Part shown: one piece after another, positions 7,819-20,672 of the stretch | Numbering within the stretch: position 1 is the first letter of the stretch | Layout: the number at the start of each line of letters is the position of its first letter | From: Paracidobacterium acidisoli | GTDB lineage: Bacteria > Acidobacteriota > Terriglobia > Terriglobales > Acidobacteriaceae | NCBI RefSeq assembly: GCF_003428625.2 | Contig: NZ_QVQT02000001.1 | Coordinates: 682,001 to 746,000, forward strand | Direction: 5' to 3' | Length of the DNA: 64,000 nt | Made by a program: the position numbers and the translations under genes | Notes under the pieces: generated by a model | Told to the model about the DNA's origin: nothing | Database searches by the model: none | Seen by the model: only the letters and a program-made list of their open reading frames with translations

Positions 7819-9576
7819 ATGGAGATAAAGGAGGCCAGCCGCGGAGCCGCAACCGGCGCGAATGCGCAGGCCGTTCGGCCCGCCGCCGCGGAGGTGAATC
7901 TCTCCCGCATCGCACCCACCCGCGACGAGCGCCTCTTTCTGGTCCTCTCCATCTTCATCGGTGTCATCTCCGGCCTGCTCGTGGTCTCCTTCCGCGTGGC
8001 CATCGAATGGATCGGCATCCTCACGCTCGGCTCCGCGCCGCACCCCGGCCAGCTCCGCCTGCTCTTCGTGCCTGCCGCCGCCGGACTGCTCGTCGCCGCG
8101 CTCGTCATCTGGTTCTTTCCCGGAGCCCGCGGCAGCGGCGTCAACCAGACCAAAGCCGCGCTCTATATCTATAACGGCTACATCTCCTTCCGCACCGTCA
8201 TCGGAAAATTCATCACCTCGGCCATCGCCATCGGCGCCGGCCACTCGCTCGGCCCCGAAGACCCGTCGCTGCAGATCGGCGCCGGCGTCGCGTCCATGAT
8301 CGCCCGCCGTCTGCGTCTCTCGCGCCAGCGCCTGCGCATGTTTGCCCCCATCGGCGCCGCCGCCGGCCTCGCCGCCGCCTTCAACGCTCCCATCTCCGCC
8401 ATTCTCTTCGTCATCGAAGAGGTTATCGGCAACTGGAGCGCCGCCGTCCTCGGCTCCGTCGTCCTCGCCGCCATCTCCAGCGTCGTCGTCGCCCGCTGGT
8501 TCTGGGGCGCCGAGCCCATGTTCCGCATCCCCTCGGTCAGCCTGCGCAATCCGCAGGAGCTGATCGCCTATGCCGTCCTCGGCATTGCCGGTGGCCTGCT
8601 CGCGCCCATCTTCTCCCGGGCCCTCGGCTTTCTGCGCCCTCGCCTGCGCGCCATGCCGCCGTGGACCCGTTACGGCCAGCCCGCTCTCGCCGGCCTGCTG
8701 GTCGGCGCCATCGGCTACTTCGGCTTTCCTCAGGTCATGGGCTCCGGCTACGGAGTCATCGATCAGGCCATGCACGGCCAGTATGTCTGGCAGTTTCTCG
8801 TGGCGCTCACCCTGCTCAAGCTGCTGGCCACCACGCTGTCTTTTTCCAGCGGCACGCCGGGCGGCATGTTTGCCCCCACGCTCTTCATCGGAGCCATGCT
8901 CGGCGCCGCCGTCGGCACCTTCGAGAAGCATTTCTTCCCGCACCTCACCGGAACCATCGGAGCCTATTCCCTGGTCGGCATGGGCGTGCTCTTCGCCGGA
9001 TTCCTGCGTGCTCCCCTCACCTCGGTCTTCATGGTGCTCGAGGTCAGCGGCAATTACTCGATCATCCTGCCCGTCATCCTCGCCAACACTATCGCCTATC
9101 TGCTCTCGCGCAGCCTGCAGCCGGTGCCCATCTTTGAGACCTTCACCCACCAGGACGGCCTCGAGCTGCCCTCGATGGAGGAACAGCGCGAAGAGCTCGT
9201 CCTGCACCTCGAAGACGCGCTGCGCCCCGTCGAAGTCCCGGTCGCCTCGGGAAGCGACAGCATCGAAGCGGCTTCGCGTCTCGTCGCCGGATCACGCGCC
9301 AGCGCCTTTCTCGTGCAGCTCGCCGACGGCACCTGGTACGCCATGACAGCCGAAGAGCTGACCGCCGCTGCCGCCGCCCATTCACCCTCCGCGGCACTGG
9401 TCACCGCGCTCCGGCCGGACCGCACACCCATGCTCTTTCCCGACCTGCCCCTCGAAAGCGCCCTGCATCACTTTCCGCGGTGGCCGCTGCTGCCCGTCCT
9501 GAACCGGGCCAACCGCAGCGTGCTCGAAGGCGTCGTCGCTCTTGACGACATCCTCCGCCGCTACCGGACCCCGTAA
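7819..9576 (+). CDS. ClC family chloride channel/transporter
   Basis: Moves chloride or other anions across the cytoplasmic membrane, probably in exchange for protons. 585 residues. Residues about 36-440 form the ClC membrane domain, with signatures GSGVNQTK (the GSGxP loop), GPEDPSLQ (carrying the gating glutamate at the GREGP position), FNAPISAILFVIEE (internal proton glutamate retained) and PGGMFAPTLFIG. Both exchanger glutamates are present, arguing for H+/anion exchange over a channel. At the position of the anion-coordinating Tyr (445 in the E. coli protein) the sequence reads PIF, i.e. Phe. The last 130 residues resemble a weak CBS-domain pair. It lies between the TPR protein and the kinase-like protein. 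Confidence 0.93.
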   Translation: MEIKEASRGAATGANAQAVRPAAAEVNLSRIAPTRDERLFLVLSIFIGVISGLLVVSFRVAIEWIGILTLGSAPHPGQLRLLFVPAAAGLLVAALVIWFFPGARGSGVNQTKAALYIYNGYISFRTVIGKFITSAIAIGAGHSLGPEDPSLQIGAGVASMIARRLRLSRQRLRMFAPIGAAAGLAAAFNAPISAILFVIEEVIGNWSAAVLGSVVLAAISSVVVARWFWGAEPMFRIPSVSLRNPQELIAYAVLGIAGGLLAPIFSRALGFLRPRLRAMPPWTRYGQPALAGLLVGAIGYFGFPQVMGSGYGVIDQAMHGQYVWQFLVALTLLKLLATTLSFSSGTPGGMFAPTLFIGAMLGAAVGTFEKHFFPHLTGTIGAYSLVGMGVLFAGFLRAPLTSVFMVLEVSGNYSIILPVILANTIAYLLSRSLQPVPIFETFTHQDGLELPSMEEQREELVLHLEDALRPVEVPVASGSDSIEAASRLVAGSRASAFLVQLADGTWYAMTAEELTAAAAAHSPSAALVTALRPDRTPMLFPDLPLESALHHFPRWPLLPVLNRANRSVLEGVVALDDILRRYRTP

Positions 9577-9649
9577 AATCCACGTCGGCTTGCATCGCTC
9601 CGCTGTCGCAAATACTCTCAGATGACGGACCGTTTCCAGCCTGACCGCG

Positions 9650-11452
9650 ATGCTGAGCCTTTATCAAAGACTGATCCTGGGGTGTCTGCTGCTGATCGCT
9701 TTGGTCACGGCGGTCAGTATGCTGGTGCGTACCTCCTTCGTCCGTCTGGCCGATCTGGCCGATCAGGTCCACCGCGCCGACGCCGCCGTCGCCTCTCTGA
9801 CCTCCGCGCGCGCCGCCCTTGCCTATGAGGAGCTGATCGCCGCCCGTCTCGAGACCGGTGCCGACAGCGCCACCCGGAAACAGCTTCAGGACCAGGCCCT
9901 GATGACCCGCAGCCTGCTGCGCGTGGCCCAGGAAAACGTCTCGCGCCTCGACCCCTCCGTCGATATCGCCGGTCTCAGCCGCCGCCACGAAGCCGCCCTT
10001 GCGCAGTTTCCGCAGCCCTCGGCAAAGCTGACCATGGCGCTCGAAGACCTGCTGCAGCAGCTCCGCCGTAATGTCGAGCAGCTCACCGCGCTCCGCAATA
10101 AAACCGTCTCCGGTCTGCTCGATCAGCAGGAGAGCCTGCGCGCCCGCCTCATCACCGCCTGCGGACTCAGCATCGCCGCCGCCACCGCCATCTCCATCGT
10201 CATGCTCACGCTGGTCATCGTGCCGCTGAAGCACACCGCCCGCATCGCCCGGCGCATCGGCCAGGGCGACCTGCACCAGCGCATCGAATGGCGGTCGAGA
10301 GACGATCTCGGCGTCATCGCCACCGAGCTCAACCGCCTCGCCGTCCGGCTCCGCGACCTCCGCGAAACCGAATCCGGCCGCCGCCAGATGGAGTTCCAGC
10401 TCAGCGACGCCGTCGTCCGCTCCATCTTCGAGCCCGTCATCGTCACCGACGCCAAAGGCCACATCCTCAAGCTCAATCAGGCGGCGATGGAGCTGCTCGG
10501 CGACGGCTCCTCCGACCGCATGGTGCTGGCCAACACCCCCGGCGGCGACAGAATTCTCGGCGCCATCCGCTCCGCGGTCTCCATGCAGCGCATGTCCACC
10601 GGCGAAGGCGATGCGGCGCTGCTGCCCATGCGCATCGGACAGGCCGAGCGCAGCTACCGGCTGCGCACCACGCCCATGCGCGACGGCGAAGGCAAGCTGC
10701 TCGGCACCGTCACCGTGCTCGAAGACGTCACCGAGCTGGCCCAGGTCGATCGCTTCAAGACCCGCTTTCTCACCGTCGCCTCGCAGAAGCTCCGCGACCC
10801 GCTCCAGCGCCTGCGTCTTTCGCTCTATGCCCTTGCGAAGGGCCATGCCGGCGATCTGCGCCCTCTGCAGTGCGATCTGGTGCAGGGCGCGGAGACTGAA
10901 GCCGAGCAGCTCGACAGCCTGATGGCCGACCTGATCGAGGTGGGTGAGCTCGAGACCGGACGCCGCGAGATGCGCGCCGAGAAGCTGCGCCCCGCCGACA
11001 TCCTGCAGAACGCCATCAGCCGCTTCCGCGACGAGGCGCGCACAAAAAGCATCGAGCTGGAGCTGAGCGTCTTCGCCGATCTGGCCTACGTCAGCGCCGA
11101 CCGCCGGGCCGTTCGCACCATCCTCGACAACCTGCTGACCAACGCGCTCCGCTATACCCCTTCGGGCGGAGAAATCCGCCTCGGCGCCACCGAAATGAGC
11201 GAGCGTATTCAGTTCTTCGTGCGCGACAACGGCCGCGGGATTGAAGCCGAGCGCCTTCCCCGCATCTTCGGCCGCTTCAGCGAAGGCTCCCGCGACGGAA
11301 CCGGCCTCGGCCTCGCCCTCGTGCGCCGCCTGGTGGAGTCGCAGGGCGGCCAGGTCTCCGTGGAAAGCCGCCTTGGCCACGGCACCACCTTCAGCTTCAC
11401 CCTCCCCATCGCGTCCGCCGGCGAAAGCCGCCACCCCGTGGAGGCAGGATGA
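9650..11452 (+). CDS. histidine-kinase-like membrane sensor lacking the phospho-accepting histidine
   Basis: 600 residues. Order: TM helix (about 7-27), extracytoplasmic helical sensor (about 30-165), second TM helix (about 168-192), HAMP (about 193-245), PAS (about 258-365), dimerisation helices, and a C-terminal HATPase. The ATPase boxes look complete: N-box DNLLTNALRY, G1 DNGRGIE, F FGRFSE, G2 GTGLGLAL. The H-box reads SQKLRDPL where kinases have SHELRTPL: codon 379 (CAG, 10784-10786) encodes Gln, so the phosphorylatable His is absent. By family knowledge it should bind ATP but not autophosphorylate on this site; it could be a phosphatase, a decoy or a sensor partner. Its stop overlaps the next start (ATGA), coupling it to the KdpD-type protein. 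Confidence 0.9.
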   Translation: MLSLYQRLILGCLLLIALVTAVSMLVRTSFVRLADLADQVHRADAAVASLTSARAALAYEELIAARLETGADSATRKQLQDQALMTRSLLRVAQENVSRLDPSVDIAGLSRRHEAALAQFPQPSAKLTMALEDLLQQLRRNVEQLTALRNKTVSGLLDQQESLRARLITACGLSIAAATAISIVMLTLVIVPLKHTARIARRIGQGDLHQRIEWRSRDDLGVIATELNRLAVRLRDLRETESGRRQMEFQLSDAVVRSIFEPVIVTDAKGHILKLNQAAMELLGDGSSDRMVLANTPGGDRILGAIRSAVSMQRMSTGEGDAALLPMRIGQAERSYRLRTTPMRDGEGKLLGTVTVLEDVTELAQVDRFKTRFLTVASQKLRDPLQRLRLSLYALAKGHAGDLRPLQCDLVQGAETEAEQLDSLMADLIEVGELETGRREMRAEKLRPADILQNAISRFRDEARTKSIELELSVFADLAYVSADRRAVRTILDNLLTNALRYTPSGGEIRLGATEMSERIQFFVRDNGRGIEAERLPRIFGRFSEGSRDGTGLGLALVRRLVESQGGQVSVESRLGHGTTFSFTLPIASAGESRHPVEAG

Positions 11453-12597
11453 GCTCTCCCGTCACCCTCAGCCACGAATCCGGCGAGCCCGCCCGGCTGC
11501 GCATCTACATCGGCGCCGCGCCCGGCGTCGGCAAGACCTTCCGCATGATGGAAGACGCTCACCTGCTGCGCCATCAGGGCTTCGATGTCGTCGTCGGCCT
11601 CGTCGAAACGCACGGGCGCGCTGAGACCGCCGCGAAGGTCGGCGATCTCGAGCTCGTTCCGCTGAAGGATATCCAGTACCGCTCCGTCACGCTCCGCGAG
11701 ATGGATCTCGATGCGATCCTCGTCCGCCGGCCCGCATGGTGCGTCGTCGACGAGCTGGCGCACAGCAATGTTCCCGGCTCGCGCCACCGCAAGCGGTATG
11801 AAGATGTGCTGGAGCTGCTCGACGCCGGCATCAGCGTGATGACCGCGGTCAACATCCAGCACCTCGAGACGCTGAACGACGCCGTCTCCCGCTCGGCCAG
11901 CACCACCATCCGCGAGACCGTTCCCGACAGCCTGCTCAGGCGCGCCGATGAGGTCGTCAACGTCGACGTCACCGTCGATGAGCTGCGCACGCGTCTGCGC
12001 AGCGGCAAAATCTACGCTCCCGAAAAGGTCGAGCAGGCGCTGGCGAACTTCTTCCGCAAGGGCAACCTCAACATGCTCCGCGAGCTGGCCCTGCGCACCA
12101 CCGCCGAACAGGTCAGCACCGCCGCAGCCGAGTACCGCCGTATCCAGGGCCTCGAACAGGCGCCCATTCCGGAAAAGGTGATGGTCTGCCTCTCCTCGCG
12201 CATCGGCATGGAGCGGCTGGTGCGCGTCGGCGCCCGCATCGCCGGCCGCCTCGCCACCAACTGGTACGCCGTCTACGTGGAGACGCCGGATACCGATCAC
12301 CGGCACGGCAATCCCGAGGCCTTTGCGCGCCTCGAAGAGTATCAGCGCATGGCGCGCGATCTGGGAGCGAGAGTCATCACGCTCAAGGACCGCAAAGTCG
12401 CCGACGCGCTGATCCAGTTCGCCCAGAAGGAAAACATCTCGCACGTCGTCTTCGGACAGTCGGCACGCTCACGCTGGGATGTTCTGCTGCACGGCTCGGT
12501 CATCAACCGCTTTCTCGCCGAAATGCGCGAGACCACCGTGCAGGTGGTCCCGATCGAAAAAGAACGCAGACAGGAAGCGGCGAAAAAGCAGGGGTAG
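11449..12597 (+). CDS. KdpD N-terminal domain plus universal stress protein domain, without kinase
   Basis: In full-length KdpD these domains sense potassium status in the cytoplasm. 382 residues. Residues about 15-225 are the KdpD sensor domain, with Walker A GAAPGVGKT (22-30) and Walker B CVVDELAH (near 97-104). Residues about 238-372 form a universal-stress-protein (USP) domain. There are no membrane segments and no HisKA/HATPase, so this is half of KdpD, like the short KdpD of some cyanobacteria. The kinase-like half may be supplied by the overlapping upstream gene, although that protein lacks the active His. No kdpFABC or response regulator is nearby. The stop codon TAG runs directly into a TTAGC-type repeat. 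Confidence 0.93.
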   Translation: MSSPVTLSHESGEPARLRIYIGAAPGVGKTFRMMEDAHLLRHQGFDVVVGLVETHGRAETAAKVGDLELVPLKDIQYRSVTLREMDLDAILVRRPAWCVVDELAHSNVPGSRHRKRYEDVLELLDAGISVMTAVNIQHLETLNDAVSRSASTTIRETVPDSLLRRADEVVNVDVTVDELRTRLRSGKIYAPEKVEQALANFFRKGNLNMLRELALRTTAEQVSTAAAEYRRIQGLEQAPIPEKVMVCLSSRIGMERLVRVGARIAGRLATNWYAVYVETPDTDHRHGNPEAFARLEEYQRMARDLGARVITLKDRKVADALIQFAQKENISHVVFGQSARSRWDVLLHGSVINRFLAEMRETTVQVVPIEKERRQEAAKKQG

Positions 12598-12871: not shown

Positions 12872-14839
12872 CTACTCCCTCTTCTTCAGCACCGCCGTGC
12901 TGTTTTCGTCCGTCGTGATTTTGCCTTCGAGGCTCTTCAGCTGCGCGTACTGGTCTGCGTTCAGAGCGAGCTTCTTCAGCACGTATTCGCGGGAGTAGTG
13001 CAGAGTGTCGCCCTCGGCCTTCACCTCGCTGCGATAGGTGGCGAAACCCATATCCACGCTGACCGGATCAGGCACCTCATCCACGGCATATCCGCTCGGA
13101 ATCTTCACGTCGAAGCTGTCGCGCCATGTGCCCAGCGACTCGAAGCTGATGGGGTACACCCGCTCCTCGTCGTTCAGACCCTCCGCGTCCGAGCCGATCA
13201 CGCGCGGCCGCACCAGCAGCAGACTGCCCGCCGTCTTCGCATACGCGGGCGCCGTCACGTCGTACTGCGTCACGAGCTGCTGGTCGAGGTTGCGAATGTT
13301 TTTAAAGTCCTCGGAATTGAGCGTGAAGGTCGAAAAGTCATTGCGCAGCGAGCCTTCGAGGCTCTCCGTGCGCTCCTTGTCGCTGCTCTCCGTCAGCCGG
13401 TGCCGCAACCCGCCCGACGAGGGGCCGCTGCGCACCACGGTCACGTCGCCCTTCAGCGTGCCGTCCGCCGCCAGCTCGAACTTCGCGGAGCGGTCCGTCA
13501 CATCCAGATCCGGCTTCAGCACCGGCAGCTCGATCACCTGACTGTCCGGCCCCGCCACCAGTGTTCCATAGCCGCCCTGCAGATACACCGGAAGCTGGCC
13601 GATCGGCACGTACGCATTGGTGGGATCGAAGATCAGATACCGCTTGCCGGTCTTCGCCGTCACCACCGCTTCGAGACGCGGATTGTCGTATCCCTTCGGA
13701 ATCTCGATCGCGGCAATTGCATGGTTCCCATACATCGAGGGCGTTCCCGGATCGACAAAGCCGCGGCGCGTATCCACCAGCACCCACGTTGCCCGGATTC
13801 CCACCGCGTCCAGCATCGAGACCAGCAATGTCGCCTTGTCCTTGCAGTCGCCATACTGATTCTTGAAAACATCTTCGGCGGAATGCGGCTGAAGGTTTCC
13901 CACGCCGATCTCGATGCCGACGTAGCGGATCTTCTGCTGCATATAATCCGCGACCTTCGCAATCCGCGCCATGAAGTCCTGGCTGTCGCCGGCCAGCGAG
14001 CGCGCCGACGCCGCCACATCCGTCGCCCCCTCGGTCCGCGGCGAGGCAAGCCCCTCATACCAGTTGCCGATGCTCGCCCACAGCGCATCTCCCTCGGGAA
14101 TGGGGCTGGCCGAGAAATGGACGCTCATGCGTCCCGCCAGCGCGCGCGGAGACGGAACCAGCGGAACATCGGAGACATCGATCGATGGAACGTCCCGCAT
14201 CTCCCAGCGGAAGTGGCCGGGCGCAATCTCCGCAGGCTGCACCGCCGCGTGATGAAACCAGACGGCGCGCTGGTGCCATCCCTGCGGCACGTCGATCTCG
14301 TAGACCGAATGCACCTTGGGAATCAGATACTGAAACTCCCACATATCCTCGTTCAGATAGCCGGGGAACTGGCTCTCCGACTCCCATGCGACGATGCCGC
14401 CCAGATCGGCACCCGGCGGCGAGGCCACGCGGGCGCGCTCGTCGTTGTAGAGTATCCCGTAACCCTCCTCGCCCACGTCCCGGTATTCCTTGTCCTTCAT
14501 GGTGTACTGGTGCCCGTCGGAACCGATACTCCACACGTGGAACGAAAGCAGCTTCTCATCCTTCGAGTAGCTCACGCCGGGAAGCGCATACTCGCGCCCC
14601 TGCGGACGCAGAATTTTGACGACGGCCCGGTAGCGGGTCACGGCGTGGCCGTCAGGCCCCACGGTGAGCAGCGTATCCTCCAGCAGATACACCGCCTTCG
14701 CATTCTTCTCGGCACGCGGCAGAGTAACCGGATTATCGACAGCCTGCTGCACCCAGTCCGGCACGTGGTCCGGAGCCGCATGGGCGGCCGCAAACGGAAG
14801 CAGCAGAACGATCGGAAGCGCGAACGCGGGGTACTTCAT
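12872..14839 (-). CDS. secreted DUF3857/transglutaminase-domain protein with intact catalytic triad
   Basis: 655 residues with a signal peptide (cleavage near AHA, residues 18-21), so periplasmic or exported. An N-terminal DUF3857 region (about 45-230) precedes a transglutaminase-like cysteine-protease fold (about 285-420). The triad is visible as C332 (QYGDCKDK), H373 (GNHAIA) and D405 (IFDPTN). The C-terminal 230 residues are DUF2569/DUF3858-like beta-rich sequence. The family is common in Bacteroidetes and Acidobacteria; its physiological substrate is unknown. The gene overlaps the end of the upstream DUF3857 gene by four bases (ATGA), so the two are coupled and probably work together in the envelope. 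Confidence 0.85.
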   Translation of the reverse strand: MKYPAFALPIVLLLPFAAAHAAPDHVPDWVQQAVDNPVTLPRAEKNAKAVYLLEDTLLTVGPDGHAVTRYRAVVKILRPQGREYALPGVSYSKDEKLLSFHVWSIGSDGHQYTMKDKEYRDVGEEGYGILYNDERARVASPPGADLGGIVAWESESQFPGYLNEDMWEFQYLIPKVHSVYEIDVPQGWHQRAVWFHHAAVQPAEIAPGHFRWEMRDVPSIDVSDVPLVPSPRALAGRMSVHFSASPIPEGDALWASIGNWYEGLASPRTEGATDVAASARSLAGDSQDFMARIAKVADYMQQKIRYVGIEIGVGNLQPHSAEDVFKNQYGDCKDKATLLVSMLDAVGIRATWVLVDTRRGFVDPGTPSMYGNHAIAAIEIPKGYDNPRLEAVVTAKTGKRYLIFDPTNAYVPIGQLPVYLQGGYGTLVAGPDSQVIELPVLKPDLDVTDRSAKFELAADGTLKGDVTVVRSGPSSGGLRHRLTESSDKERTESLEGSLRNDFSTFTLNSEDFKNIRNLDQQLVTQYDVTAPAYAKTAGSLLLVRPRVIGSDAEGLNDEERVYPISFESLGTWRDSFDVKIPSGYAVDEVPDPVSVDMGFATYRSEVKAEGDTLHYSREYVLKKLALNADQYAQLKSLEGKITTDENSTAVLKKRE

Positions 14840-16848
14840 TGCGGCTTCACCGAAGTCGTCGCCGTGGTCGCCACCGGCATCGGCCCCACCTTCAGCACCA
14901 GCGGCTCCTGATCGTGCGCGCTGGCCTTCTGGTAGAAATCCCGCAGCGTCGTATATTCCTTCGCGTAAAACAGATCGGTGCCGATCAGCATGGCGCGCCC
15001 ATAATTAATGCTGTTTCCCGCTATCCGGCACTTCTCCACGTAATCGGCAAGCTGCTGCACCGGAATATCGGTATCCTGGGGAGTGCTCTCGACCGTCATA
15101 TTGGCAGGCAGTTTGATCGTGACCTGATCGGCGACATCGGATGCATAGTTCAGATCGATCGGGGTCTCGCGCGTCGTCTCCGGAAAGCGCGGCTTCTCAC
15201 CGGCCTCGAAGAAGCTTCCCGGCAGAAAAACGCGCTTGCCGGTCGCCGTCCCCATGGTGCCGCTGATGTTCGCCATCACCATCAGTGCTGTCGTGTAGTC
15301 GTTCAGCCCGACAAAATGGTCTGTCTTCACTGTTATGCCCGGAGGCACGACCCGCTGCAGTTCGTCCTCGAAGTCCTTCTTCACTTCCTCCTCGTCATTC
15401 CGCAGCGCCGCATGGCGCCAGCGGAGAGCCTGCGCTCCCGCGAACAGGATGCGGATATCCCCGTGCACCTTGCCATCGGGATCAAGCTGAATATCCGCAT
15501 AGCGCCGTGTCGCATTGTCCTTGTAGCTCAGCCCCGGCGTCGTGGTGATTTCTGTGCCGTTGTCCGTCTGGCGAATCCCCGCCGTCTCGGTATGCTTCCA
15601 GCTCAGCTTTCCAAATTCGCAGTAACGCTGCCCCGGGTCGAAGTACTCTTCCTTCCCGCCGGCATTCACGATCACGATCTCGTCGTCCATCTGCCGCCAG
15701 CTCAGATATCCGGCATTGAAGAGGCTTTCATCGCGGTTGGTAACGGCCATGGCATACGCCTTCATCCCCGCGGCCCGCACCATAGCCAGAAACAGCCGCG
15801 CAATCTGATCGTCGTAGCCGCGCTTCTGCTCCCAGATATCGTCGGCGGTCTTTACGCGAAGCCCTTCCGCCTTGTTCTCTTCTGCCGTGTGCGTGCGGGT
15901 AAAGCTCGTATTCTCGAGCTTCATCACCGCCGCATAGATCTTCTGCAGCTTCTGCTCGTCCGTATCGCCGGGAGCCACCATCTGGCTGACCGCGCTTTTC
16001 AGCTTGTCCGACGGAGTCGCAAAGTGATCCACATTCTTCGACCAATATTTGCCCTCGGTCTTCCAGTACTGCACCCCGTCCGTGAACGGCGAGTAATAAA
16101 AGAGCACGCGGTAGCTCAGGCTGTGCATCGGCGGCATGAACGGCTCATCGGGCAGCGCCTCGATATCGTCCACCGCCAGATCGAAGCCGTTAAAGCCCTC
16201 CGTCACCTTCGCATCGTGAGGCAGGTGCTGGAAATAAAGCAGCCGGCTCGCCACGTCCTCATGCCCCTGCGAGTCACGGGTCGTCACATAGCGGCTTCCG
16301 CTCATATCGAACGGGATGAAGTGATAGTGCGCCTTGTGTACGTAGATCGGCTGCTGCACATACCACTCGGGCGAGCTCAGAAGATTATCGTCATAGGCCA
16401 GAACGTAGCGGTATTCGATAATGCTGCCCACCTGCACATCCGGCATGCTGAAGACCTTTTCCATCACCTTCCGGTCGCCGGACTTCATCAGCAGCTTATC
16501 CATCGGCCTGCCGGTAAACGGCACAATGGTGCCGTCGCTGTGGATGGTGCGCCCCTCCACATTCCGGATCGTGAAGCCGTGCGCCTCGTAGGGAATCTCC
16601 ACGTCGGCGTAGTCCTTGCCCTTTTCCGTCAGCACCTTGATGCGGGCATACAGCGAGTGGAAGTGCAGCTTGTCGTCCACCGTCTCTTCGCGGAAGAGAT
16701 ACACCGCAGGGGCATTCGGAGCCGCCGGGTCCGCAGTCATCTTCAGCTCTTCCGGAGTGGGTTGCGTCCAGGTGGGAGCGGCCAGTGCGGGAAAAGACGC
16801 AAACAGCAGAAAGGAGACGCACACGGAACGGCGCAGAGCGGTCAGCAA
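14836..16848 (-). CDS. secreted DUF3857 protein with degenerate transglutaminase domain
   Basis: 670 residues with a signal peptide (cleavage near ALA, residue 23). Same architecture as the next gene: DUF3857 (about 55-245), transglutaminase-like core (about 290-420), beta-rich C-terminus. In the core the cysteine position reads KRGYDDQIARL, so Asp 346 replaces Cys, and the histidine position falls in QMDDEIVIV, so Asp/Glu replaces His; only the YFDPGQ aspartate remains. It is therefore predicted to be non-catalytic. It is first of the overlapping pair and could act as a binding or regulatory partner of the intact paralogue. Upstream is a 157-bp gap with no recognised site. Confidence 0.83.
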   Translation of the reverse strand: MLTALRRSVCVSFLLFASFPALAAPTWTQPTPEELKMTADPAAPNAPAVYLFREETVDDKLHFHSLYARIKVLTEKGKDYADVEIPYEAHGFTIRNVEGRTIHSDGTIVPFTGRPMDKLLMKSGDRKVMEKVFSMPDVQVGSIIEYRYVLAYDDNLLSSPEWYVQQPIYVHKAHYHFIPFDMSGSRYVTTRDSQGHEDVASRLLYFQHLPHDAKVTEGFNGFDLAVDDIEALPDEPFMPPMHSLSYRVLFYYSPFTDGVQYWKTEGKYWSKNVDHFATPSDKLKSAVSQMVAPGDTDEQKLQKIYAAVMKLENTSFTRTHTAEENKAEGLRVKTADDIWEQKRGYDDQIARLFLAMVRAAGMKAYAMAVTNRDESLFNAGYLSWRQMDDEIVIVNAGGKEEYFDPGQRYCEFGKLSWKHTETAGIRQTDNGTEITTTPGLSYKDNATRRYADIQLDPDGKVHGDIRILFAGAQALRWRHAALRNDEEEVKKDFEDELQRVVPPGITVKTDHFVGLNDYTTALMVMANISGTMGTATGKRVFLPGSFFEAGEKPRFPETTRETPIDLNYASDVADQVTIKLPANMTVESTPQDTDIPVQQLADYVEKCRIAGNSINYGRAMLIGTDLFYAKEYTTLRDFYQKASAHDQEPLVLKVGPMPVATTATTSVKPQ

Positions 16849-17924: not shown

Positions 17925-20672
17925 TCACGGAACCAGAAAAGGCCGCAGCCCCTGTGCCGGAAACAGCCCCGTCGCCCCCGGCTCGCCCCCATACTGCGGC
18001 CGAAAGAGGAAGCGAACGAAAAAGCCCACCGTCTGGTTGTCGTAATCGCGCGTGTTATTCCCCGAGACGGAGCCGCCCGCGTACCAGTGATCGGTGAGGC
18101 GATATGCCATCTCTCCATGAAAATCGTAGCTCAGACCCGTGTGGCTTCGCCCCGCATACGCAGCATTTCCCGCCGCTTTTTCGAGCGCCGCATCCAGCGG
18201 AAAGTATGGAGCGCCGTCTTCCTCAAAGGTCTGCACGCCCGGCGCTCCGGTAAGGTCATAGTGCAGATTCACTCCCCTGCGCCCTCGCCATGTAACCGGC
18301 GCGCTGGCGTCAGCATAGCGCTGCGGGCTGAAGTATCCACCCTGTCCCCAGGTGAAATAGCGCTCATTGTGCGCGTAGTGCATGCCGGAAACGCGGAGGC
18401 CCATCGTCACGCTCGACGTATCCGCAACCGCGAACAGCCGGTGCCACGCGCCTGCCTCGCCGCCGATGCGCGTGTTGTTCCCGACATGCTCGCCGGTCAG
18501 GTACTGTCCTCCGCCGCTGACGAAAAAACCGGAGCTCGCATCGCCCATCCGCAGCTCCGCCTCGCCGGCATTGGCCACCACGCCGCCCCATACCCTGCCC
18601 ACCGACCCAGCACTCGCAGAGCCAGCACTCGCAGAGCCCGGATCATGCGCGCCCGCATACGAAAGCTGCGAATCCCGCACCGAATCCCGATACGCCGAGA
18701 CCGTGAGCGGCCCGCCCGCCGGTCTCCAGCGCACACGGCCCACGAAATGGCCCACGGCAAATCCCGTCGGAGTATACCCGGCTCCGGCGGCAAAGTGCGG
18801 CGTGGCCACCTGTACCTCTTCGCCCACTCCGGCCACGCTCTGTGACGGCGGAGCCACTCCCGCAGCCAGCGTGCCGAAGCGCTCCGAAACACCCGGCGAC
18901 AGAACCGGCGCGCTCGCTCCCGCGCCCGCATCCAGAAATGTGGGCTTCACGATCAGCGTCACGCGCGCCACCGCGCCCAGCGGCGTCGAAGCCTCCAGCG
19001 GCGCCTCCGTCGCCATAAGCCGGTCGAAGCCCGGCGTGCCGCCGCGATGACTCACCAGCCCCGTGCCGCCCAGCCACGGACTGTAGCTGCCCTCGATCGT
19101 CGCCAGCTCTGCATCCGCCGCCTCCTTTGGGTTTCTTATGCGAATGACCGGCTCGGGCTTGCCGCCCTCCATCGCCGCCGCAGAAGCCGGAGCCGCGGAA
19201 ACCGCCCCCCCGGAAACGGAAGCAGGACCAGCAGCAGCAGGCCCTCCCGCCGCCGGCACTTCCTCCGTCGCGGCGATCTTCTCCTCCGGCGGATGCGAAA
19301 CCCCTTCGCTCACCGCCTCCGCAAACGGAGCTGACGCCCGCTCCTCTGCACTTCGCTGCTCTGCGGCCTGCAGATCCGACAATCGCAGATCTTCCGGCGG
19401 CGACCGCCATCGCAAAAGCCTCCGCTGCGCAATCTGCTGCGACAGCGCGGTCGGCTCTGTCACCAGCCCCGTCTCATCGAGCGGCCTTGCCTCAATCTCC
19501 GCCGGCCGCACCCGCTTCACCGATCCCGACGAAATGGAAAGGTGAAGCTGCGCGCCGCTCCCCTCCTCCGCAATCACCTGTTCGGCTTCTGCCTCCTCGA
19601 CCGCGTGATCCTGCGCAGCCGCGCCTCCAGGAGGAGCAGGCGGCGGCGGCGCGATCTTCGCGCTCGCCGCACTGTTCTCACTCCCTGCCGCCGGCCTCTG
19701 CTCCCTGGTCGTCGGCTCACTGCTCCTTTGCTCACTGCTTATCGGCTCTGCTGGCTTCGCCGCTTCCCGCTCCGTCTCCGGTGCCTGCGCAGCCGGTGCC
19801 GACGGTGCCTCGCTCTTCGCGGCATCGCCATGATCGGCGCTGGCCGTTGAAGCCTCCGGCTCATGCGATACGGGATGCTCCTCGCCCTTTGCGCCGTGAC
19901 CGTTGTCCGCAGAAGCCGGTGGCGTTGCCTCCGCGGGCGATCCTTCCCCGGCAGCCACATACGCCGCCGTCAGCCTCTGGAGGTACGCCGGATCGGTCGC
20001 AAGATCCTTACCCACCTCCGCGGGAAACCGCTTCGTCGTGGCAATGGCGTCCCGCGGATTCCCTCCCTCGGCCTGCGCCGTAAACAGCCCAAGCCACACC
20101 GGCTCCGCATCCGGCAGCACGCTCACCAGCCGCTGATAGACCGGGATCGCCTTCGCCGGCTGCTTTTCCTGCATGTAAACTCCGGCCAGCGACTGCAGCG
20201 CCACGGCGCTCTTCGGACGCAGCGCCAGCGCCGCCCGCAGGCGGTCCTCCGCCTGCTCCATGCGGCCCGCATTCCACGCCTCGGTCCCCTGGTCGACCGC
20301 ATCCTCGAACTGCGCATCGGTGAGCGCGCTGTCGATCTGCGGACCCGCGAGGCCATCCGCCTTCGCCTGAGTAAAGTAGCTCACCGCGCCGGCAAAATCC
20401 TGCTGCTGCAGGTGTACATAGCCCAGCCCGGCCAGCACGCGCGGATTGAATGGCTCGACGGTGTGCAGATCCTCGAAGCGCCGTTCGGCTTCGGCCAGCC
20501 GGTGCGCCGCCAGAGCGGAAAAGGCCGCCTGCTCCGCCGGCGTCTGCCCCAGCGCTTCAAAGCTCTGCGTCTGCGGCACGGGAGACTGGGCCGCGAGCCG
20601 CAACACACAACAGGAAAAAACAAGCCAGACCAGCGCTGCTCCCAGGGCCGGTCTGCACAGCATCCGCATCAT
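17925..20672 (-). CDS. BcsC-like outer-membrane protein (TPR plus beta-barrel)
   Basis: 915 residues. A signal peptide (about 1-28) is followed by TPR-like repeats (about 40-250), a long Ala/Pro/Glu/Ser-rich linker (about 250-430), and a C-terminal BcsC-type barrel (about 560-915). The barrel ends with YFSPQRY, ShTGLSYDFHGEMAYRLTDHW, GGSVSGNNTRDYDNQTVGFF and VRFLFRPQY, which are hallmark BcsC_C segments. BcsC forms the outer-membrane channel for bacterial cellulose. No bcsA, bcsB or bcsZ is in the window and the N-terminal TPR array is shorter than in E. coli BcsC, so it may serve a different exopolysaccharide. The start follows GGAAGGA. The linker includes a stutter-repeat-like patch and a duplicated SASAG pentapeptide. 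Confidence 0.85.
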   Translation of the reverse strand: MMRMLCRPALGAALVWLVFSCCVLRLAAQSPVPQTQSFEALGQTPAEQAAFSALAAHRLAEAERRFEDLHTVEPFNPRVLAGLGYVHLQQQDFAGAVSYFTQAKADGLAGPQIDSALTDAQFEDAVDQGTEAWNAGRMEQAEDRLRAALALRPKSAVALQSLAGVYMQEKQPAKAIPVYQRLVSVLPDAEPVWLGLFTAQAEGGNPRDAIATTKRFPAEVGKDLATDPAYLQRLTAAYVAAGEGSPAEATPPASADNGHGAKGEEHPVSHEPEASTASADHGDAAKSEAPSAPAAQAPETEREAAKPAEPISSEQRSSEPTTREQRPAAGSENSAASAKIAPPPPAPPGGAAAQDHAVEEAEAEQVIAEEGSGAQLHLSISSGSVKRVRPAEIEARPLDETGLVTEPTALSQQIAQRRLLRWRSPPEDLRLSDLQAAEQRSAEERASAPFAEAVSEGVSHPPEEKIAATEEVPAAGGPAAAGPASVSGGAVSAAPASAAAMEGGKPEPVIRIRNPKEAADAELATIEGSYSPWLGGTGLVSHRGGTPGFDRLMATEAPLEASTPLGAVARVTLIVKPTFLDAGAGASAPVLSPGVSERFGTLAAGVAPPSQSVAGVGEEVQVATPHFAAGAGYTPTGFAVGHFVGRVRWRPAGGPLTVSAYRDSVRDSQLSYAGAHDPGSASAGSASAGSVGRVWGGVVANAGEAELRMGDASSGFFVSGGGQYLTGEHVGNNTRIGGEAGAWHRLFAVADTSSVTMGLRVSGMHYAHNERYFTWGQGGYFSPQRYADASAPVTWRGRRGVNLHYDLTGAPGVQTFEEDGAPYFPLDAALEKAAGNAAYAGRSHTGLSYDFHGEMAYRLTDHWYAGGSVSGNNTRDYDNQTVGFFVRFLFRPQYGGEPGATGLFPAQGLRPFLVP

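Follow-up and report, generated by a model that had tools for sequence, protein, structure and literature searches.

The window analyzed here is a stretch of 64,000 nucleotides (bases 682001-746000 of contig C1) from the genome of Paracidobacterium acidisoli, which comprises 5.0 Mb in 15 contigs. At positions 9650-11452 of its forward strand lies a gene for a protein of 600 residues that is built like a membrane-bound histidine kinase and in which the phosphoacceptor histidine is replaced by glutamine; we refer to it as psHK, for pseudo-histidine kinase. The gene that follows on the same strand, at 11449-12597, codes for KdpD-N, a protein of 382 residues with a KdpD domain and a Usp domain. 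From its N-terminus, psHK consists of a hydrophobic helix, a helical sensor region and a second hydrophobic helix (the two helices were read from the sequence alone), followed by a HAMP domain (residues 189-236, positions 10214-10357; PF00672, E 1.5e-6), a PAS domain of the Pfam type PAS_4 (residues 260-364, 10427-10741), a Pfam HisKA/DHp domain with the H-box SQKLRDPL (residues 370-437, 10757-10960) and a HATPase_c or CA domain (residues 484-587, 11099-11410; PF02518, E 1.3e-28) in which the N, G1, F and G2 boxes are intact, all on the forward strand. The HisKA domain scored 25.4 bits in the Pfam scan, for a cut-off of 26.9, and 30.9 bits, above the cut-off, in the genome search. The H-box context reads FKTRFLTVASQKLRDPLQRLRLSL, and codon 379, which is aligned with the phosphoacceptor histidine of relatives, is CAG, at 10784-10786. 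The earlier note on this DNA had placed a glutamine at this codon, within 10775-10800, and had described the HAMP, PAS and ATP-binding boxes as intact, and on both counts it was right; the partner KdpD-N and the missing response regulator, described below, do not appear in it. By the psHK gene, the closest named relatives are Acidobacteriaceae, including Silvibacterium and Acidobacterium; Silvibacterium bohemicum and Acidipila rosea are among the species that carry it. An open reading frame of 677 codons on the reverse strand opposite the kinase (9401-11434), like other long antisense frames, is expected of GC-rich DNA and was not counted as a gene.

Comparison with orthologous sequences makes the loss of the phosphoacceptor histidine a firm property of the whole psHK clade. 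Of 200 genomes searched in the order, 47 have psHK: in 46 it is a clear orthologue, at E 2.6e-132 or better, and in the remaining one (G178) the match is cut by a contig edge and shares 59% identity over 170 residues; among the matches listed, the paralogues lie beyond a gap, at E 2.4e-52 or weaker and at most 38% identity. Histidine is missing at the column in all 30 orthologues that were fetched, the one in the window included (the column was not read in the other 17 of the 47 genomes), and in 56 of the 56 named loci of the Acidobacteriaceae branch that have a letter there; only one of the 80 named loci, L186, has none. Relatives beyond the family came from a scan of named genomes and a search of the phylum, and the resulting alignment has 101 rows: 40 with histidine, four of which are ordinary kinases used as the outgroup, 60 of the histidine-less clade, and a separate case, L097. 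Outside the clade the histidine is kept in 36 of 37 aligned relatives, the outgroup aside, while the 60 clade rows hold R (35), Q (16), E (3) and single instances of L, G, D, K, N and S. A recent point mutation or a sequencing error is ruled out by the 30 orthologues without histidine, and a fixed substitute acceptor, such as the tyrosine of DivL, by the mixture of residues at the column. The earlier note had proposed aligning orthologues at this position as a check, and the alignment found no histidine-bearing orthologue inside the clade. Its suggestion that a single base change from a histidine codon to CAG would explain the glutamine does not describe the history, given the nine residues found at the column and a loss that maps to the base of a clade of 54 rows.

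The neighboring positions changed along with the histidine. At +1, the clade has K in 59 of 60 rows and R in the other, as opposed to E or Q in all 36 histidine-bearing relatives; at +4, D, E, G, A or Q is found in 58 rows and T in two, as opposed to T in 36 of 36 relatives. In the window these positions are K380 and D383, in place of the canonical acidic or amide residue and of Thr or Asn. This clade-wide co-substitution bears out the long-term divergence that the earlier note had read from the Lys and Asp neighbors. We take the +1 and +4 positions to be those of E281 and T284 in the streptococcal kinase CovS. In CovS, E281 is required for the kinase and T284 for the phosphatase activity (PMC7028121; this and the other papers are cited from parts of their text). 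Since both positions are replaced in psHK together with the histidine itself, neither autokinase nor phosphatase activity is to be expected of it. We expect psHK to be a conserved receptor of histidine-kinase build that neither phosphorylates itself on a DHp histidine nor passes a phosphoryl group to a regulator.

The rest of the kinase has been kept. N494, N498, D526, G528 and G530 of the CA domain, which has the N, G1 and G2 boxes of a canonical kinase, are invariant in 59 of 59 clade rows, and G552 and G554 are found in 57 and 58 of them, respectively; with none of the 60 clade members having the histidine, the pattern that the earlier note had drawn from one sequence, an ATP-binding domain preserved and a phosphoacceptor lost, extends to the clade. 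Among the histidine-less Acidobacteriaceae, mean pairwise identity is 78% for PAS (residues 250-365), 72% for CA, 70% for DHp and 55% for TM2-HAMP, so that of these four regions PAS is conserved best. Median pairwise omega is 0.18 for PAS, 0.24 for DHp and 0.21 for CA (Nei-Gojobori medians over pairs that are not independent), and the ATP boxes of psHK have thus been kept under purifying selection. The predicted structure, of which only the domains were used (mean pLDDT 83.7, pTM 0.45), contains the expected helices and PAS, DHp and CA elements, with low confidence at residues 544-549 of the ATP lid. Its best match in the PDB, by VIA-align, is DivL (4q20; Z 25.3, 224 residues, root-mean-square deviation 5.1), which is also the second match by sequence, and its second is ZraS with ADP (Z 23.8). 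The structural match supports a kept kinase fold in the model, and alone is no demonstration of a shared mechanism. A kinase fold that is kept while the phosphotransfer residue is lost or dispensable across orthologues is one mark of pseudo-histidine kinases of the DivL and RocA kind, and psHK bears it. The N-terminal region is more variable: it matches 4HB_MCP_1 in two relatives (L091 and L185) and not, in the Pfam scan, in the psHK of the window, and a short-form branch among the loci fetched for the 30 orthologues has open frames of 463-525 residues that do without the N-terminal sensor region and keep the rest.

For a maximum-likelihood tree of 89 rows the H-box columns were left out and the root was placed on the outgroup. 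It requires two losses of the histidine, one at the base of the 54-row clade (100/100 support, in a bootstrap that had not quite settled) and one in L097 alone. The 54-row clade is made up of the Acidobacteriaceae rows, L185 from the Terriglobia and two genomes of another family, f12 (L091 and L092); histidine-bearing relatives include Blastocatellia, Pyrinomonadaceae, Armatimonadetes, Chthonomonadales and deltaproteobacteria. The independent loss (L097, 4790-6622 in G460; H-box AAQALQEPL) stands in a kdp operon of another family with no adjoining response regulator, and its CA domain is worn (N-box ILLGNAIENT, G2 box GAGLELA). In the fetched stretches, which extend only 1.5 kb for L211-L240, 27 of the 36 histidine-bearing rows have a match to KdpA, KdpB, KdpC or KdpD-N.

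Six receiver queries were used to look for response regulators within 2 kb of each gene and on its strand. One lies beside each of 18 histidine-bearing loci with full flanks (15 of 15 if three duplicate loci are left out), and none was found within this distance in any of the 46 histidine-less loci with full flanks. Where flanks are short, a regulator was seen in four of seven histidine-bearing loci, all but L196, L209 and L210, and in none of 14 histidine-less ones. psHK lacks the nearby response regulator that is usual, though not universal, for canonical HisKA kinases; in L091 and L185 a KdpE does occur, further downstream and behind the separate sensor kinase HK_kdp. These patterns suggest that the loss of the histidine and that of the regulator are linked. 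The regulators of the live relatives vary, being OmpR-like in L208 and NtrC-like in L206. Seven of them (in L188, L190, L194, L195 and L198, and two in L191) join a receiver domain to a C-terminal part that was not recognized; it measures about 125-140 residues without a Pfam match in L191 (6286-7754), L190 (3440-4255), L188 (6232-7059) and L198 (6134-7045).

The constant neighbor of psHK is KdpD-N. It lies directly downstream of all 30 orthologues fetched and, on the Acidobacteriaceae branch, of psHK in 55 of 56 named loci, the contig ending at the other (L182). In 49 of 55 loci its start codon falls between -10 and +20 bases from the stop codon of psHK. In the window the two genes overlap by four bases, the stop codon TGA of psHK (11450-11452) running into the start codon ATG of KdpD-N (11449-11451), and a GGAGG precedes that start at 11440-11444, within the last psHK codons; together these make translational coupling of the pair probable. 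No fusion of psHK and KdpD-N in one frame, which would have served as proof of interaction, was seen among the loci examined, and no constant third gene was seen beside the pair (ClC occurs mainly with the long form, and the flanks differ in the ten loci listed). KdpD-N is the sole match to PF02702 in the genome, and aligns to positions 22-384 of the 895 of the KdpD model. It carries a Walker A motif, GAAPGVGKT (G-X5-GKT), at 11512-11538 and the Walker B residues D101 and E102 at 11749-11754, both on the forward strand, and all 54 KdpD-N frames from the Acidobacteriaceae branch retain these residues, which are the serine-kinase motifs. The best NCBIfam match, NF038185 (407.5 bits, for a cut-off of 550), is named 'KdpD_non_kinase', a name at odds with the serine kinase role of the same domain in Escherichia coli. 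There, the N-terminal domain of KdpD works as an atypical serine kinase: when K+ is high, it phosphorylates S162 of KdpB, the serine of the TGES motif, and shuts down the pump. The inhibition of KdpB survives both the H673A substitution and the removal of the DHp and CA domains (PMC11018627). From its motifs, the KdpD-N of the window is likely to be an atypical serine kinase as well.

The other half of KdpD is encoded elsewhere in the genome. HK_kdp, on contig C11, aligns to positions 389-883 of the same model and has DUF4118, a HisKA domain with VTHDLRTPL and a HATPase_c domain; its gene is divergent from those of a KdpE-like regulator and kdpABC. The regulator, which adjoins HK_kdp, has a Trans_reg_C domain and scores 191 against KdpE, for a cut-off of 325. 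With complementary halves on separate genes and a KdpE-like regulator, this is a split KdpD, an arrangement reportedly also found in Alicyclobacillus. In Deinococcus and cyanobacteria, too, KdpD-N and the C-terminal kinase reside on different genes (PMC5716572, PMC11018627). The presumed substrate is at hand, TGES being present in the KdpB encoded on C11 and in 49 of 50 KdpB frames. The gene order kdpA-B-C-psHK-KdpDN-HK_kdp-KdpE in L091 and L185 ties psHK to the Kdp system. So far as sequence can tell, then, psHK is a genuine pseudo-histidine kinase of great age that has been maintained, and it is tied to a split KdpD.

We lean, with modest confidence, towards psHK being the receptor of a split KdpD serine kinase; its regulatory role on KdpD-N is one that we infer, next to the firm loss of the histidine. 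psHK and KdpD-N would interact as a complex in the membrane; there psHK would take in signals through its PAS and HAMP domains, with ATP in the CA domain perhaps acting as a gate, and would set the activity of KdpD-N. Acting as a serine kinase, KdpD-N would phosphorylate the TGES motif of KdpB and shut KdpFABC when K+ is plentiful, while the transcriptional arm would be served by the separate, canonical HK_kdp, its histidine intact, and the KdpE beside kdpABC. Since an output through a serine kinase needs no phosphohistidine, the histidine, and with it the response regulator, could be lost without giving up the part of psHK that transmits the signal. As to the input, cyclic di-AMP (c-di-AMP) is the signal to which the short KdpD of Deinococcus geothermalis responds (PMC11018627). 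This signal is unlikely to be the input in Acidobacteriaceae: no diadenylate cyclase was found in 12 of 12 psHK-bearing genomes of the family that were tested, by a search that found the enzyme in 11 of 14 control genomes. Over all Acidobacteriaceae tested, 13 of 14 genomes gave no match to it; the four genomes tested from elsewhere in the Acidobacteriota, two of family f12 and two of f23, have it.

Several observations weigh against this interpretation. The linkage between the losses of histidine and regulator counts two events, not 46, even if both point in the same direction. The co-occurrence of psHK and the Kdp system is weak, since kdpA is present in 46 of 47 genomes with psHK and also in 130 of 153 without it. 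Genome G057, which is 99% complete, keeps the psHK-KdpD-N pair (at 8279-11272 of locus L050), and no KdpA, HK_kdp or KdpB orthologue was found in it; KdpB would then not be the only target everywhere, and the pair may have another one, which weakens the idea of a role confined to kdp. In other Acidobacteriaceae (L120-L127) a KdpD-N of a second type, 40-44% identical, occurs without psHK; it stands beside HK_kdp and KdpE in eight of eight fetched loci (with kdpA in six of eight), so that psHK is not a general need. Diadenylate cyclase occurs together with psHK in G207 and G431, which belong to another family, and it is lacking in G036, which has the second KdpD-N type and no psHK. The residue after the GKT of Walker A is F in the window and Y in most relatives, where E. 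coli KdpD has Trp39, which pairs with Arg190 around the adenine. Finally, the N-terminal domain of E. coli KdpD is active alone in vitro (PMC11018627), and a partner is not strictly required.

Of the alternatives, the one that fares best makes psHK an accessory pseudokinase of HK_kdp that joins it in a mixed complex and biases its kinase/phosphatase balance towards KdpE; KdpD-N would be the third subunit and make the split KdpD whole. RocA, which acts in this way on CovS, provides a precedent (PMC7028121), the single gene order in L091 and L185 would suit such a complex, and a match to HK_kdp at E 1e-60 or better exists in 45 of the 47 genomes with psHK, G051 and G143 having one only at 1e-67 to 1e-71. 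We nevertheless regard this arrangement as rather unlikely, since G057 keeps the pair without HK_kdp, psHK and HK_kdp lie on different contigs (C1 and C11) in the genome studied here, and the neighbor that stays constant is KdpD-N.

It is also conceivable, but improbable, that psHK and KdpD-N control an ion transporter other than KdpFABC. One candidate is next door: a gene for a ClC-type chloride channel or exchanger (7819-9576, forward strand; PF00654) ends 73 bases upstream of psHK. Of 18 named loci with the long form, 15 have a ClC gene no more than 2.5 kb upstream, and no KdpB orthologue was found in G057. The association is largely one of the long form, however. Within 2.5 kb of the short forms a ClC gene was found in one of 38 named loci and not in the other 37, four of which have a short upstream flank. 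In another set of loci a ClC also accompanies two short forms (L058, and L059 at 2.5 kb) and was not found at three long forms (L045, L049 and L050). In G057 no ClC was found in the sequence retrieved around psHK, and in L091, L092 and L185 the pair is part of a kdp operon. On the other side of the pair, and convergent with it, the reverse strand of the window encodes two tandem DUF3857/transglutaminase-like proteins with overlapping ends (12872-14839 and 14836-16848), which also adjoin the pair in L043 and L048. Further along the same strand (17925-20672) lies a gene for a TPR protein with a BcsC C-terminal domain (PF05420).

A further proposal is that psHK is half alive, its CA domain phosphorylating in trans the histidine of another kinase within a heterodimer. 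The invariance of key CA residues and the purifying selection on them are what it would predict, and in such a pair the loss of +1 and +4 from the DHp domain of psHK itself would presumably be irrelevant. We infer that the CA domain may bind ATP. DivL, however, retains the fold and yet bound an ATP analogue weakly (PMC4211667), and by that analogy the intact motifs of psHK are no proof of ATP binding. Furthermore, no obligate partner bearing a histidine was found, and HK_kdp is missing from G057, so that we consider trans-phosphorylation by psHK highly doubtful. That psHK is a decaying relic without function is barely credible: its catalytic residues and response regulator are gone, and the separate loss in L097 does come with a worn CA domain, but against it stand an omega of about 0.2, ATP-box residues that do not vary, and 30 of 30 orthologues with open frames and with the pair kept together.

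Pseudo-histidine kinases and split KdpD proteins are both known kinds, and it is their pairing that was not met in the literature found. Among the titles and abstract openings searched on pseudo-histidine kinases, KdpD variants and Acidobacteria (subscription journals and supplements lay outside the search), none dealt with a histidine-less kinase tied to KdpD. To our knowledge, few pseudo-histidine kinases have been well studied, and their origin is poorly documented. DivL of Caulobacter crescentus shares with psHK a histidine-kinase fold, a phosphoacceptor missing in orthologues (Tyr for His) and a PAS input (PMC4211667). It differs in reading DivK~P and steering CckA, whereas psHK has no regulator gene at hand and has KdpD-N for a neighbor; moreover, the residue in psHK is variable (R, Q, E and others) and never Tyr in 60 rows. 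The nearness of the two is one of fold, and not of shown descent. RocA of Streptococcus pyogenes is likewise a membrane pseudokinase that works through another signaling protein with no phosphotransfer of its own; unlike psHK, it keeps a histidine, which is dispensable, and binds a histidine kinase, and the parts of the report cited here mention no KdpD domain (PMC7028121). In E. coli KdpD a single polypeptide bears a live histidine, whereas here the serine-kinase half is separate and stands beside a histidine-less kinase of the HAMP-PAS and not the DUF4118-GAF type. The cited parts of the accounts of split KdpD and Usp proteins in Deinococcus and cyanobacteria make no mention of a histidine-less HAMP-PAS kinase as a partner (PMC5716572, PMC11018627).

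In its widest form, which we put forward only tentatively, the proposal is that a histidine-kinase chassis, freed of phosphotransfer, became the transmembrane receptor subunit of a serine kinase, KdpD-N. The post-translational control of potassium uptake and its transcriptional control would then pass through two separate sensors, in bacteria seemingly unable to make c-di-AMP, and in G057, which is without a Kdp pump, the pair would have taken a new target. With live relatives, two losses, a missing regulator and a retained partner in one gene family, the change from kinase to pseudokinase can be traced stepwise. Since KdpD-N was discovered to be a serine kinase, the question has arisen by what route a short KdpD, lacking sensor domains in the membrane, is informed of potassium in bacteria without c-di-AMP, and here the family may offer a testable answer.

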